NCBI RefSeq assembly: GCF_000517445.1
Contig: NZ_CP006965.1
Location: 186,001 to 250,000 of the forward strand
Reading direction: 5' to 3'
Origin: Thermococcus paralvinellae
Lineage (GTDB): Archaea; Methanobacteriota_B; Thermococci; Thermococcales; Thermococcaceae
DNA length: 64,000 nucleotides
Shown piece by piece: positions 23,641-45,484 of the stretch. Numbering within the stretch: the first letter of the stretch is position 1; every line of letters starts with the position of its first letter. The notes under the pieces were generated by a model. It saw only the letters and a list, made by a program, of their open reading frames with translations, was not told the origin of the DNA and did no database searches. A program made the translations under genes and the position numbers.

Positions 23641-23685
23641 GCAAAATTCTGAGATTCTTACATGGCAATCATTTAGGTGATACTC

Positions 23686-24690
23686 ATGGCGAGAGATGAA
23701 GTTAGAAGAATCCTTCCTGCAGACATCAAGAGGGAAGTGTTAATCAAAGATGAAAAAGCTGAGACCAATCCAAAGTGGGGCTTTCCGCCCGAGAAGAGGC
23801 CAATGGAAATGCACATGCAGTTTGGCATAATCAATCTCGATAAGCCTCCGGGACCTACAAGCCACGAGGTTGTAGCATGGATTAAAAAGCTCTTTAACTT
23901 AAAGAAAGCGGGTCATGGAGGAACACTTGATCCAAAGGTTAGTGGTGTTTTACCGGTTGCCCTTGAGAAAGCAACTCGTGTAGTTCAGGCTTTGCTCCCA
24001 GCTGGAAAGGAGTATGTAGCTTTAATGCATCTTCATGGTGATGTTCCAGAGGATAAGATCTACAGAGTTATGAAGGAGTTTGAGGGGGAAATCATCCAGA
24101 GGCCTCCTCTAAGAAGTGCCGTTAAAAGGAGGTTGAGGACGAGAAAAGTGTACTACATTGAAATTCTGGAAATTGATGGTAAAGATGTTCTCTTCAGAGT
24201 TGGCGTTGAGGCTGGGACTTACATACGTTCACTTATTCACCATATTGGGCTAGCTTTGGGAGTCGGTGCTCACATGGCCGAGCTGAGAAGAACGAGAAGC
24301 GGACCGTTTAAGGAGGATGAAACTTTAGTGACTTTGCATGACTTAGTTGACTACTATCACTTCTGGAAGGAAGATGGAATTGAGGAATACTTCAGGAAAG
24401 CAATCCAGCCGATGGAGAAGGCAGTGGAGCATCTGCCGAAGGTCTGGATTAGGGATTCAGCAGTTGCCGCTGTGACTTATGGTGCTGATTTAGCAGTTCC
24501 TGGAATTGTTAAGGTGCATGCTGGCATAAAGAAAGGAGATTTAGTTGCTATAATGACACTCAAGGATGAACTTGTTGCGTTAGGAAAAGCTATGATGACA
24601 AGCCAAGAGATGCTCAACAAGAGCAAGGGAATAGCTGTTGATGTCGAAAAGGTGTTCATGCCGAGGGATTGGTATCCGAAGATGTGGTGA
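23686..24690 (+). CDS. cbf5: tRNA/rRNA pseudouridine synthase Cbf5 (TruB family)
   Basis: Catalytic subunit of H/ACA ribonucleoprotein; also makes psi55 in tRNA. Catalytic motif HGGTLDPKVSGVL (Asp at about residue 85), TruB core, and a C-terminal PUA domain (from about AVTYGADLAVPGIVKVHAGIKKGD). 334 aa from ATG 23686 (GGTGATACTC before it). Normal for archaea. Confidence 0.97.
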   Translation: MARDEVRRILPADIKREVLIKDEKAETNPKWGFPPEKRPMEMHMQFGIINLDKPPGPTSHEVVAWIKKLFNLKKAGHGGTLDPKVSGVLPVALEKATRVVQALLPAGKEYVALMHLHGDVPEDKIYRVMKEFEGEIIQRPPLRSAVKRRLRTRKVYYIEILEIDGKDVLFRVGVEAGTYIRSLIHHIGLALGVGAHMAELRRTRSGPFKEDETLVTLHDLVDYYHFWKEDGIEEYFRKAIQPMEKAVEHLPKVWIRDSAVAAVTYGADLAVPGIVKVHAGIKKGDLVAIMTLKDELVALGKAMMTSQEMLNKSKGIAVDVEKVFMPRDWYPKMW

Positions 24691-24898
24691 TTGTGGGCTT
24701 TTCATAGACTTCTTTTTCCACTGTTGCGCTCATTTAGATATCGCTTTACTCCCTCTTAATATAGTCCAAATAGGCTAGTGAAACTATGGTTGGAATACCT
24801 CAATTCTACAAAAAAGCGGAAATAATTACGTTTGGTAAAAGGAAAGGTTATAAGGGATTGAACATTAATTTTAGTGACCACTATGGAGATGTGGTAAT
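24691..24898. other. Gap after cbf5
   Basis: 208 bases. A T-rich run after cbf5 may end transcription. AAGGTTATAAGG at about 24844-24855 is a TATA candidate for the decayed membrane gene. Nothing else seen. Confidence 0.4.
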
Positions 24899-25164
24899 AT
24901 GATGTCATGGGACAAACTAGGAGTCTATGCTGGTATGTTTATTGGCTCATTGTATTTTCTTTTCCTTTTAGTGTATCAGAAGAGGATAAGTAGAAAGCAT
25001 TGGCTCTTAAATATTGAAATAGCGTTGTTTGTTTTGTCCATAAGCATTGCAAATTATATGTCTCTTCGGGATATACAGGGGCAACTGTCTCTGGAGCTCT
25101 GTCTTGGGCATGGTTAATCATCATAGCTTTGACCACGCTGTATGTAGTTAAATCTGGACATTGA
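24899..25164 (+). pseudogene. Small membrane protein gene with a single-base frameshift
   Basis: ATG 24899 (GGAGATGTGG before it) starts a frame with two hydrophobic segments (YAGMFIGSLYFLFLLVYQ and WLLNIEIALFVLSISIANYM) that then runs into a polar tail and stops at 25117. In the -1 frame from 25069 the sequence continues as GYTGATVSGALSWAWLIIIA, a third hydrophobic segment, stopping at 25164. One missing G in the GGG at 25068-25070 explains this. Family not recognised; it could be decayed or a sequencing slip. Confidence 0.5.
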
Positions 25165-25430
25165 CAGAGGGATAAGTTCGTGTCTCTCAAAAATGTCTCC
25201 CCTCATAGATAGTTGTTGGGGTGGTCGCTAGCTTTCTGGATCTCTTCATAATATCTCGACTCTGGGGTGAAGGCCAGTTTCCATTAGTTGCATACGTTGG
25301 ATTCTTTAGGGGATGGATAATAATTGGAACACATTGTCTCATAGGAGGCAGGGACGAGTCAGTGAATCACAATAGCTATTGGTATAACGTTAGAGCCATC
25401 TTTTTAAACCTTCTCAGCGAATCTTCAACT
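25165..25430. other. Region without an intact gene, possible remnant
   Basis: The frame of the downstream methyltransferase is open here from 25221 and reads partly hydrophobic sequence (FLDLFIISRLW, YVGFFRGWIIIG) but has no ribosome-binding site and no family resemblance. It may be a remnant of a second membrane gene. A TATA-like TTTTTAAACC at about 25401-25410 is the probable promoter of the methyltransferase. Confidence 0.4.
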
Positions 25431-26018
25431 ATGAGCCACTACTACTCCGAAAATCCCAATGTTCCACTAAAAACTAAGACAATTGAGGTATTTATTAGAG
25501 GACAGTATTTTAAGTTCATCACAGCGAGCGGAGTCTTCTCTTTCGGGAAATATGATGAGGGTACTCGATTATTGGTTGAAAATGCTATCCTTGAAAAAGA
25601 TTGGCGTGTTTTGGATTTGGGCTGTGGGTATGGTGCAATTGGCATTGTGGTGGCTAAATTTGTTGATTACGTTGTGATGACTGACATTAACAGGAGAGCA
25701 ATAAGCATAGCAAAGAAAAACTTAAAAATCAACAATGTGAAGAATGCCGAGGTTAGATGGGGTAACCTTTATGAACCCGTCAAAGGAGAAAAGTTTCACA
25801 GCATAATTACAAACCCACCAGTGCATGCCGGCAAGGAAGTTTTAAGAGAAATAGTTATAAATGCTCCCAAGCATCTCTACGATGGAGGTCTGCTCCAGCT
25901 GGTGATAAGAACTAATCAGGGCGCAAAGTTTATTAAAGCCCTAATGGAGCAAACCTTTAAAGATGTGAGAGAATTAGCTAAAGGAAGTGGCTATAGGGTG
26001 TATGCCGGGATCGCCTAG
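25431..26018 (+). CDS. Class I SAM methyltransferase, RsmC-like
   Basis: 195 aa from ATG 25431 (MSHYYSENPNVP), nearly leaderless given the TATA at 25401. SAM motif LDLGCGYGAIGI at about residue 62 and catalytic NPPVHAGK at about residue 127 match RsmC / MJ0882-type enzymes that make N2-methylguanosine in RNA. The frame extends upstream to 25221 but without conserved sequence. The TAG stop (26016-26018) is inside the tRNA-Ser gene, so the last five codons are also tRNA acceptor and D-arm sequence. Confidence 0.88.
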   Translation: MSHYYSENPNVPLKTKTIEVFIRGQYFKFITASGVFSFGKYDEGTRLLVENAILEKDWRVLDLGCGYGAIGIVVAKFVDYVVMTDINRRAISIAKKNLKINNVKNAEVRWGNLYEPVKGEKFHSIITNPPVHAGKEVLREIVINAPKHLYDGGLLQLVIRTNQGAKFIKALMEQTFKDVRELAKGSGYRVYAGIA

Positions 26019-26090
26019 CCTGGGATGGCGCGGGCCTTGAGAGCCCGTGGGCGTTTGCCCGCCGGGGTTCAAATCCCCGTCCCGGCGCCA
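26004..26090 (+). tRNA. tRNA-Ser (UGA)
   Basis: Acceptor GCCGGGA pairs TCCCGGC; D arm GCC...GGC; anticodon stem CGGGC/GCCCG with loop CTTGAGA giving anticodon TGA; long variable arm; T arm CGGGG-TTCAAAT-CCCCG; discriminator G and encoded CCA. First 15 bases overlap the 3' end of the methyltransferase gene. Confidence 0.95.
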
Positions 26091-26091
26091 A

Positions 26092-26109
26092 AATCCTCTT
26101 TGAAGGATT
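26092..26109 (+). promoter_or_regulatory. Small inverted repeat between tRNA-Ser and S13
   Basis: AATCCT-CTTTGA-AGGATT directly after the tRNA CCA end. It may mark the 3' processing or a weak terminator; the S13 ribosome-binding site GGAGGTG follows at 26114-26120. Confidence 0.3.
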
Positions 26110-26129
26110 AATCTGGAGGTGTATTTATA

Positions 26130-26576
26130 ATGGCAGAATTTAGGCATATCGTCCGTGTTGCGGGAGTAGATTTGGATGGAAATAAACAGCTCAGATGGGC
26201 GCTCACAGGAATAAAAGGAATTGGCATAAACTTTGCAACAATGGTGTGCAGAGTTGCTGGATTAGACCCATTCCAGAAGGCAGGTTATCTAACAGACGAA
26301 CAAGTTAAGCTCATTGAGGAAATCCTTGAGGACCCAGTTAAGCATGGAATTCCACCCTGGGCAGTGAACAGACCAAAGGACTACGAGACTGGAAGAGATA
26401 TGCACCTCATTGGTGCAAAGCTTGTCATGGCATGGCGTGAGGACATCAACAGGCTCAGGAGAATTAGGGCATACAGAGGTATTAGACACGAGCTTGGCTT
26501 GCCATTAAGAGGACAGAGAACGAGATCGAACTTCAGAAGAGGAACAACAGTCGGTGTAAGAAGAAAGAAGAAGTGA
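26130..26576 (+). CDS. rps13: Ribosomal protein S13 (uS13)
   Basis: Head protein contacting tRNAs and L5. [26 protein letters not shown] and the C-terminal [20 protein letters not shown] are diagnostic. 148 aa; starts the alpha-type block S13-S4-S11-RpoD. Confidence 0.98.
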
Positions 26577-26586
26577 GGTGATATAA

Positions 26587-27132
26587 ATGGGAGACCCTAA
26601 GAGACAAAGGAAGAAATACGAAACTCCCTCTCATCCATGGATTAAGGAGAGGCTTGACAGAGAGAGAGTTTTAGTAAAGAAGTATGCCCTCAAGAACAAG
26701 AAAGAGCTCTGGAAGCATGAGACTCAGCTTAAGGAGTTCAGAAGAAGAGCAAGAAGGCTGCTTGCAGCAAGAGGAAAGCAGGCAGAGATTGAAAGACAGC
26801 AACTGCTTCAGAGGTTGGCAAGACTTGGAATCCTTCCAGAAAATGCTGTGTTAGATGATGTTCTTTCACTTACGATTGAGGACATCTTAGAGAGAAGACT
26901 CCAGACGCTTGTCTACAGAAAAGGCCTTGCAAGGACAATCAAACAGGCAAGACAGTTAATTGTCCACGGTCACATCGAAGTCAATGGACAGATAATCAGA
27001 TCACCGAGCTACCTCGTCCTTAAAGAAGAGGAAGATGGTATAACTTACGCAAAGACATCACCTTTCGCTAAGGAATCACACCCTGAGAGAGTTGTTATTG
27101 AGCAAGCTAAGCAGGCGGGTGAGGCTCAATGA
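26587..27132 (+). CDS. rps4: Ribosomal protein S4 (uS4)
   Basis: Small-subunit assembly protein with an S4 domain ([32 protein letters not shown]). 181 aa, archaeal S9-like. Overlaps S11 (ATGA). Confidence 0.98.
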
Positions 27133-27539
27133 CTGAGGAGGTAAATATTAAGAAGAAGGAGAAATGGGGTGTTGCTCACATTTATTCCTCATACAACAAC
27201 ACCATAATTCACATAACCGACCTCACCGGTGCAGAGACAATTTCAAGATGGAGCGGTGGTATGGTTGTTAAGGCAGACAGAGATGAACCATCTCCATACG
27301 CAGCCATGATTGCCGCTAAGAGGGCAGCTGAAGAAGCTTTGGAAAAGGGTATTGTTGGTGTGCACATTAAAGTTAGAGCTCCTGGCGGAAGTAAGAGCAA
27401 GACCCCAGGACCAGGTGCTCAAGCTGCAATTAGAGCTTTAGCTAGAGCTGGTCTTAAGATCGGCCGTGTTGAAGACGTTACACCAATACCTCACGACGGT
27501 ACAAGGCCCAAGGGCGGCCGTAGGGGTAGAAGAGTTTAG
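27129..27539 (+). CDS. rps11: Ribosomal protein S11 (uS11)
   Basis: Platform protein. [23 protein letters not shown] and the C-terminal [19 protein letters not shown] are characteristic. 136 aa. Confidence 0.98.
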
Positions 27540-27572
27540 CTTTCTTTACAACTTCTTTTTTGGTGAGAAAAA

Positions 27573-28349
27573 ATGAAAATTAAAATTCTTGAAAAAAGGG
27601 AAGATGCGATTCGTTTTATCTTAGAAGGTGTTGATGCGGCTTTTGCAAATGCATTAAGGAGAGCAATAATTGGGGAAGTACCGACTTTTGCAATTGATGA
27701 GGTTGAGTTCTATGAAAACGATTCAGCTCTCTTTGACGAGATTATTGCTCACCGCTTAGCCATGATTCCTCTCACCACTCCACATGACAGATTTGAGCTT
27801 GATGCTCTTGAGCTTGATGAATATACAGTTACTTTAAGCTTAGAGGCTGAAGGACCAGGCATAGTTTACTCAGGTGATTTAAAGAGTGATGATCCTGATG
27901 TTAAGCCTGTGACACCAAACATACCAATTGTAAAACTAGCAGAAGGTCAAAAGTTGACCTTTAACGCTTATGCTAAGCTTGGAAGAGGAAAAGACCATGC
28001 AAAGTGGCAACCGGGATTTGCCTACTACAAGTATCTCACAAAGATCCATGTGAGTAAGGAAGTCCCAAACTGGGAGAAAATAAAGAAGCTGGCAAAGAAG
28101 AGAAAACTTCCCGTTGAGGAAACTGAAAATGAGTTTATCATCACAACGATCACAGCCTTCTATCTTCCAAGAGAATTTGAGCAATATATGGGTAACTTGA
28201 TTAGAGAAGAGATTGTGCCGAATACATTCGTATTCACAGTAGAAAGCAACGGAGAGCTCCCTGTTGAGGAAATGGTAAGCATAGCGCTCAAGATTTTGAT
28301 GAGAAAGAGCGATAAATTTATAAACGAGCTTCATAAATTAGCCGAATAG
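27573..28349 (+). CDS. rpoD: RNA polymerase subunit D (RpoD)
   Basis: Assembly-platform subunit (RPB3/alpha-like) that pairs with subunit L. N-terminal [20 protein letters not shown] dimer motif. 258 aa. There is no cysteine in the protein, so it cannot carry the ferredoxin-like Fe-S cluster found in RpoD of some other archaea. Confidence 0.97.
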
Positions 28350-35927: not shown

Positions 35928-35952
35928 CTTTTTAAACCTTGCCTTCAATTAT

Positions 35953-45319: not shown

Positions 45320-45484
45320 TAGACTTGTAGGTTAATGAAGCTTACTTTATGTTGTTGGGTTTGTTATTTTTCAGGCTCATTTTTAGTTCTAGGGTTAGAT
45401 TATATAATTTTCTTGGTTTTTTATGTTACTATCTCAAGTTTTATAACTACTGCGACTATTTAATACCAAAAAATATGTCGAAAA
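45320..45484. other. AT-rich gap upstream of the methionine operon
   Basis: No gene seen. Contains T-rich runs after rpp30 that may terminate transcription, and ends at the TATA region of the next operon. Confidence 0.4.

Follow-up and report, generated by a model that had tools for sequence, protein, structure and literature searches.

Candidate promoters for tRNA-Ser(UGA) within the methyltransferase gene that overlaps it in Thermococcus paralvinellae

In the stretch of Thermococcus paralvinellae DNA analysed here (64 kb, referred to below as the window), a methyltransferase gene ends inside the gene for tRNA-Ser(UGA), which raises the question of how the two genes are both expressed. Our answer, to which we attach a probability of roughly 0.86, is that promoters within the methyltransferase gene drive both tRNA-Ser and the S13-S4-S11-RpoD operon, and that the methyltransferase itself is read from a promoter of its own. 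The genes concerned are the following.

23677-24690, forward strand: cbf5, the upstream neighbour (gene name match)
25431-26018, forward strand: coding sequence of an MJ0882/RsmC-like class I methyltransferase, MTase (ORF list, homologue alignments, MTS profile)
26004-26090, forward strand: tRNA-Ser(UGA), called by ARAGORN, with an encoded CCA read from the sequence
26004-26018, forward strand: overlap of MTase and tRNA-Ser(UGA), the last four codons plus TAG being nucleotides 1-15 of the tRNA
26130-26576, forward strand: rps13, the first protein gene after the tRNA (gene name match)
26587-28349, forward strand: rps4, rps11 and rpoD (gene names), presumably co-transcribed, judging from their spacing

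The MTase gene and its conserved overlap

The MTase is read from a conserved ATG at 25431, homologue matches aligning from residue 1, and has 195 amino acids; in the ORF list the frame ends at 26018, with TAG 26016-26018 as the stop codon. It scores 151.2 bits against the MTS domain (PF05175, Pfam gathering score 23), covering positions 3-169 of the 170 in the profile, and residues 5-191 align with MJ0882 (PDB 1dus). Against the equivalog for RsmC (16S m2G1207; NCBIfam NF007023) it reaches 78 bits where the cut-off is 295, and the match spans only positions 170-334 of 342. On these profile scores, RsmC-like would be a better name than RsmC. The gap of 740 nt that separates the gene from cbf5 (24691-25430) contains a 72-residue ORF (24899-25117), for which no NCBIfam match was found at 1e-20. 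In 23 of 82 loci from relatives the corresponding gap could be measured, and it never exceeded 327 nt; with a fetched flank of about 400 nt, longer gaps would have escaped notice.

The letters GCC GGG ATC GCC TAG encode A, G, I, A and stop, and are also nucleotides 1-15 of the tRNA, the TAG being nucleotides 13-15. The ARAGORN call and the ORF list together bear out the initial annotation, which had the MTase frame ending inside the tRNA gene, and its further point that RNase P cleavage at 26004 would give an MTase mRNA without a stop codon follows directly from the coordinates. A comparison of the C-terminus and the tRNA-Ser spacing in relatives, as that annotation had proposed, covered 89 Thermococcaceae loci, the window and 88 fetched relatives, and showed the identical 15-nt overlap in 84 of them. 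ARAGORN finds the tRNA in 83 of the 84; in the other (L033) the contig breaks off within the tRNA, with identical letters. All 84 have the C-terminus YAGIA, and they come from six genera, with 69-98% MTase protein identity to the window. An MTase match at E <= 0.001 is present in all 94 Thermococcaceae genomes searched, and five drafts with only weak, paralogue-like matches (G036, G062, G067, G082, G086) were left out. Three loci (L116, L117, L118) hold just the 3' part of the gene, and the protein has 195 residues in all 86 loci that can be read from residue 1. The five exceptions (L110, L112, L113, L114, L117), here called uncoupled as opposed to the coupled 84, all belong to one genus (g3), which we take to be Pyrococcus. 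The 89-locus comparison rules out chance as the source of the overlap, and points to a same-strand gene pair that has been conserved by descent, far beyond chance expectation.

tRNA genes are common integration sites, and this favours the suggestion that recombination or integration at the tRNA has truncated the MTase; alternatively, the overlap could be an error of assembly or annotation, in which case relatives might have a longer MTase. Both proposals can be set aside with near certainty, since the overlap recurs in so many separate genomes, the domain is near-complete, and the uncoupled relatives (four of them readable from residue 1) also have 195 residues.

We also considered whether T13 of tRNA-Ser(UGA) is fixed only by its role in the stop codon. 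This idea is weakened by the presence of TAG at nucleotides 13-15 in 29 of the 44 tRNAs of the T. paralvinellae genome. An open frame of 124 codons in the same genome likewise enters tRNA-Gln(CTG) and stops at nucleotides 13-15 (L152, C1:1864826-1865400); by eye it has a non-genic look.

Promoter boxes and codon constraint within the coding sequence

A promoter matrix of 16 positions was trained on sequence upstream of the other tRNA genes of T. paralvinellae, with 31 of 43 such regions used and tRNA-Ser(UGA) itself left aside. The 12 regions omitted scored below 4 bits, and most of them follow a preceding tRNA gene or belong to the rRNA operon. The training sites are 24-42 nt from their tRNA (median 28), and a score of 4.65 bits corresponds to the 99.9th percentile of the window. 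The sites considered here are:

25393-25408, forward strand: candidate MTase promoter, 9.3 bits, 22 nt before the ATG
25713-25728, forward strand: P1, BRE/TATA box in the coding sequence, 14.3 bits
25846-25861, forward strand: P2, BRE/TATA box in the coding sequence (MTase codons 139-144), 12.5 bits, predicted start near 25884
25921-25936, forward strand: P3, BRE/TATA box in the coding sequence (MTase codons 164-169), 15.3 bits, predicted start A25959

On the forward strand between 25200 and 26004, the three best matches are P3, P1 and P2, in that order, followed by sites at 25760 (12.2 bits), 25947 (10.1) and 25393 (9.3). The MTase thus carries BRE/TATA boxes within its frame that are oriented to the downstream gene. 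Only nine sites in the 64-kb window, counting both strands, reach 12 bits, and four of these are inside the MTase. Elsewhere, a 17.6-bit BRE/TATA box at 28309-28324 (forward strand), within the 3' end of rpoD and 32 nt upstream of tRNA-Leu(CAG), looks like a second tRNA promoter within an upstream coding sequence of the same gene string. The other tRNA-type sites of at least 12 bits are at 35929 and 52418 on the reverse strand and at 45478 and 56894 on the forward strand, with no tRNA called nearby.

The P. furiosus consensus given in PMC6640164 has RRAAA for the BRE, WTTTAAAW for the TATA box and YR for the INR, with the last TATA base at -23. P1, P2 and P3 fit the consensus as given there, and the spacing would place the start of P3 at A25959, with a 45-nt leader to the tRNA, and that of P2 near 25884. 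The boxes are further from the tRNA (142 nt for P2, 67 nt for P3) than the 24-42 nt of ordinary tRNA promoters. The lack of a near box is not unique to this locus, being shared in T. paralvinellae by tRNA-Ser(GGA) and tRNA-Pro(GGG).

The boxes recur in the coupled relatives. P2 scores at least 10 bits in all 84 coupled loci, and P1 does so in 79 of 83, with values below 4.65 in the remaining four, three of which are in g3. P3 is weaker: its median is 7.0 bits, and of the 84 loci 80 reach 4.65 bits and 11 reach 10. When the 82 full-length coupled coding sequences are searched for sites of at least 10 bits, these fall at offsets 282 (P1, 78 sequences), 415 (P2, 82) and 490 (P3, 11); the only other offsets to reach three sequences are 329 (9) and 516 (4). 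The box-like sites at 25760 and 25947, which reach 10 bits in just 9 and 4 of the 82 sequences, were dropped.

Synonymous change was counted as Fitch steps on a tree built from codons 1-160 of the 82 coupled sequences. This count replaced a codon-shuffle test, in which relatedness made most positions look conserved; its high-ranking windows included codons 138-142, 189-191, 98 and 145. Codons 139-143, at P2, together show a single synonymous step in 82 sequences, against 8-28 steps at many other codons within 85-195. Change is also low at codons 95-102 (P1), except for codon 97 with 14 steps, and at codons 165-169 (P3), except for codon 166 with nine. Among six-codon windows P2 ranks first, with a ratio of 0.06, and the next separate regions are at 147, 98, 172 and 190 (0.25-0.33); the P3 windows are less constrained (0.44-0.45). 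Two further runs with few synonymous steps, codons 147-151 and 173-175, are outside the boxes, and are perhaps the initiation regions of P2 and P3 (25869-25883 and 25947-25955, respectively).

This constraint outside the boxes could also be taken to mean that the MTase mRNA contains RNA elements, or a small RNA, and that these, not promoters, make up the conserved islands. We consider this highly improbable, given that only the tRNA reaches an Rfam gathering score within 24600-26700, that the islands match the promoter matrix of the genome's own tRNAs in the correct orientation, and that the relics in the spacers of uncoupled loci (described below) include the boxes. The reading that the boxes are promoters agrees with the alternative that the initial annotation had allowed for, namely that the tRNA has its own promoter: they match the matrix, they are constrained, and the tRNA would probably be transcribed from them.

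The same boxes may also serve the genes beyond the tRNA. The tRNA lies directly before rps13; of 88 loci, 87 have a distance of 23-42 nt and one gave no rps13 start, and in the window a forward-strand promoter scan around 26004-26130 found nothing better than 0.2 bits in the 39-nt gap. Because the gap is this short and has no promoter-like site, the S13-S4-S11-RpoD genes most likely depend on P1-P3. For the MTase itself, 60 of 79 coupled loci have a site of at least 4.65 bits at a distance of 21-23 nt upstream of the ATG, and from the site at 25393-25408 its mRNA would probably start at its own AUG, and so be leaderless.

Uncoupled loci and outgroups

The five uncoupled loci provide a natural experiment, which outlines what the tRNA needs as a promoter. 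In four of them (L110, L112, L113, L117) the MTase ends in YAGKK and the tRNA is 81 nt further on, while in L114 the end is YAGRL and the distance 158 nt. Within the uncoupled coding sequences the P2 position scores between -21.6 and -11.1 bits, and the P3 position between -6.0 and -0.7. In all five, however, a P3-like box of 13.4 bits is found in the spacer before the tRNA, where it can be recognised as the relic of an overlapping MTase 3' end. A P2-like box of 10.7 bits is at the new MTase stop codon in four of the five; the L114 spacer has a 20.0-bit box in its place, with no relic of P2 left. We infer that uncoupling arose by duplication of the MTase 3' end, after which one copy still encoded the protein while the other retained the promoters. 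L114 stands apart from the other uncoupled loci in the trees, but a single clade is not rejected (p-AU 0.149), which is compatible with one uncoupling event or two.

P1 behaves differently. Its position in the uncoupled genes scores -6.3 to 0.6 bits (L117 being unreadable), and the coupled g3 loci L107, L109 and L111 score 3.7, -4.3 and -9.9 bits. The idea that P1 was lost upon uncoupling was therefore dropped, the absence of P1 from uncoupled genes being uninformative when coupled g3 loci lack it too. It is worth adding that nucleotide 13 of the tRNA is C in all five uncoupled loci and T (of TAG) in the coupled genes. Among 27 pattern matches in nine g3 genomes, C13 is found only in the five uncoupled tRNA-Ser(UGA) genes; a link with uncoupling is suggestive only.

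These loci bear on the proposal that tRNA and MTase come from one transcript, with RNase P cleavage and translation in competition. Every full-length MTase mRNA must, from the coordinates, include the 5' arm of the tRNA, and the arrangement has been kept in nearly all of the loci compared, both of which fit such a competition. It is nevertheless improbable, in that the stretch from the MTase start to the tRNA contains promoter boxes under constraint, that in the broken pairs the P3 box (5/5) and the P2 box (4/5) have stayed with the tRNA, and that the competition is dispensable in the five loci that have given up the overlap.

The P2 box appears to dictate residues of the enzyme. A profile was made from 1dus and 14 of the 19 outgroup proteins fetched, 15 in all, and the four full-length uncoupled MTases surpass the coupled ones in their fit to it most clearly at residues 139/140, at P2 (six-residue windows); the region of best relative fit is residues 139-145. 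Coupled proteins have REIVINAP here and uncoupled ones ERIIREAP or ERIIRGAP, and MJ0882, an archaeal MTS-domain methyltransferase homologous over residues 5-191, has HRIIEEGK (HRIIEEG against REIVINA in T. paralvinellae). Thus the P2 codons are near-invariant when coupled, with their one synonymous step, and the residues shift back toward the family consensus when uncoupled. A separate, lower peak at residues 95-96 coincides with P1, and is not attributable to uncoupling because coupled g3 loci also lack P1. At residues 148 and 150 it is the coupled MTases that fit the outgroups better.

Elsewhere in the class, an MTase is found at E <= 1e-30 in 19 of 21 genomes, and all 19 were fetched. In family f3 it is followed by tRNA-Ser(GGA) in 9/9 loci, with an overlap of 1 nt in which the last base of TAG is nucleotide 1 of the tRNA; the same pair is seen in a presumed Ca. 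Methanofastidiosia genome of this family (L126). In the ten other outgroup MTase loci (f2, f4, f5), no tRNA was found in the stretch from about 0.6 kb before to up to 1.3 kb after the gene. By eye, cbf5 was recognised upstream in six outgroup loci, three in f3 and three in f2/f4.

tRNA-Ser(GGA) precedes rps13 in 18 of the 20 outgroup genomes with an rps13 match (f2 3/3, f3 10/10, f4 5/5, f5 0/2), and in f2 and f4 a box of 7.4-8.8 bits is found 23-30 nt before that tRNA in 8/8 loci. Of the two arrangements, tRNA-Ser-rps13 lacking the MTase probably came earlier. The tRNA-Ser at this place is UGA in Thermococcaceae (26004-26090) and GGA in f2, f3 and f4 (L164-L203), which would imply a change of anticodon or replacement of the tRNA. 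In f3, 28 of 41 degenerate codons with an invariant amino acid in codons 138-189 are also invariant as codons, against 10 of 78 in codons 1-137, and this indicates that the 3' end of the MTase gene is constrained there too. Box-like sites are present in f3; the argument rests on constraint and not on boxes, because by their own average these AT-rich loci would be expected to have about 0.7 sites of such strength per 600 nt.

Taken together, these comparisons suggest an order of events that began with tRNA-Ser-rps13, served by an ordinary promoter immediately before it. In the ancestor that Thermococcaceae share with family f3 (Methanofastidiosia), the MTase gene would then have come to stand in front of the tRNA, and the role of tRNA promoter would have passed to the 3' part of that gene.

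Proposed arrangement and comparison with known systems

In the arrangement that we propose, one stretch of DNA would do three jobs, as MTase codons, as promoters and as the tRNA 5' arm. It encodes the last ~100 residues of the MJ0882-like MTase. The BRE/TATA promoters in codons 95-169 (P2 in all coupled genomes, P1 and P3 in nearly all) would fire toward tRNA-Ser(UGA), and transcription would continue through the tRNA into rps13-rps4-rps11-rpoD. Finally, the tRNA 5' arm would double as the last four MTase codons and stop. The MTase would be read from its own upstream promoter, and its mRNA would hold a stop codon only if it extended 15 nt or more into the tRNA. Because that stop lies within the tRNA, RNase P would turn the mRNA into a non-stop message. 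The internal promoters would supply the tRNA and the operon, so that the tRNA need not depend on the MTase mRNA. With the tRNA apparently transcribed on its own, it is mainly the MTase that would suffer from a conflict between maturation and translation.

It is possible, though doubtful, that the overlap is a conserved switch, in which the MTase mRNA is fully translatable only before RNase P excises the tRNA. If true, this would tie the level of a probable RNA-modifying methyltransferase to the capacity for tRNA maturation, and the internal promoters would provide for tRNA-Ser and the S13-S4-S11-RpoD operon in any case. We know of no tmRNA in these organisms. For the RNase P step, and for this step only, we incline somewhat to a different reading, compatible with the arrangement proposed: the promoters are real, and the sharing of the stop codon is a neutral by-product of genome compaction, without any function. 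Given how many tRNAs of this genome have TAG at nucleotides 13-15, frames that enter at nucleotide 1 will often stop there, and five relatives live without the overlap; nothing decisive speaks against it. On either reading of this step, the locus superimposes a coding sequence, putative promoters and a tRNA gene, an arrangement that an archaeal family has preserved, and would be a clean case of a message whose stop codon is inside an RNase P substrate.

No earlier report of the MTase/tRNA-Ser overlap was found among the open-access papers that the searches listed. In mitochondria, tRNA and protein genes overlap in such a way that tRNA letters form the end of the coding sequence, and a polycistronic transcript is relied on; at MTase/tRNA-Ser(UGA), in contrast, separate internal promoters are indicated.

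For T. kodakarensis, PMC4247193 describes 90 ORF-internal starts judged to serve the downstream gene, and the legend to its Figure 4 mentions rpoN and TKt26, the latter a tRNA to judge from its name. As described there, internal starts near ORF 3' ends likewise have a BRE/TATA within an ORF as the primary promoter of the downstream gene, so that a mechanism of this kind is already known. Compared with that description, the overlap of coding sequence and tRNA, the conservation across relatives and the effect on the protein sequence are features of the MTase locus. The same paper places a tRNA-Lys in the 5' UTR of TK0306, which is likewise a tRNA heading a protein-coding transcript; tRNA-Ser(UGA) differs from the case described there in that it also overlaps the upstream coding sequence, and heads the S13-S4-S11-RpoD string.
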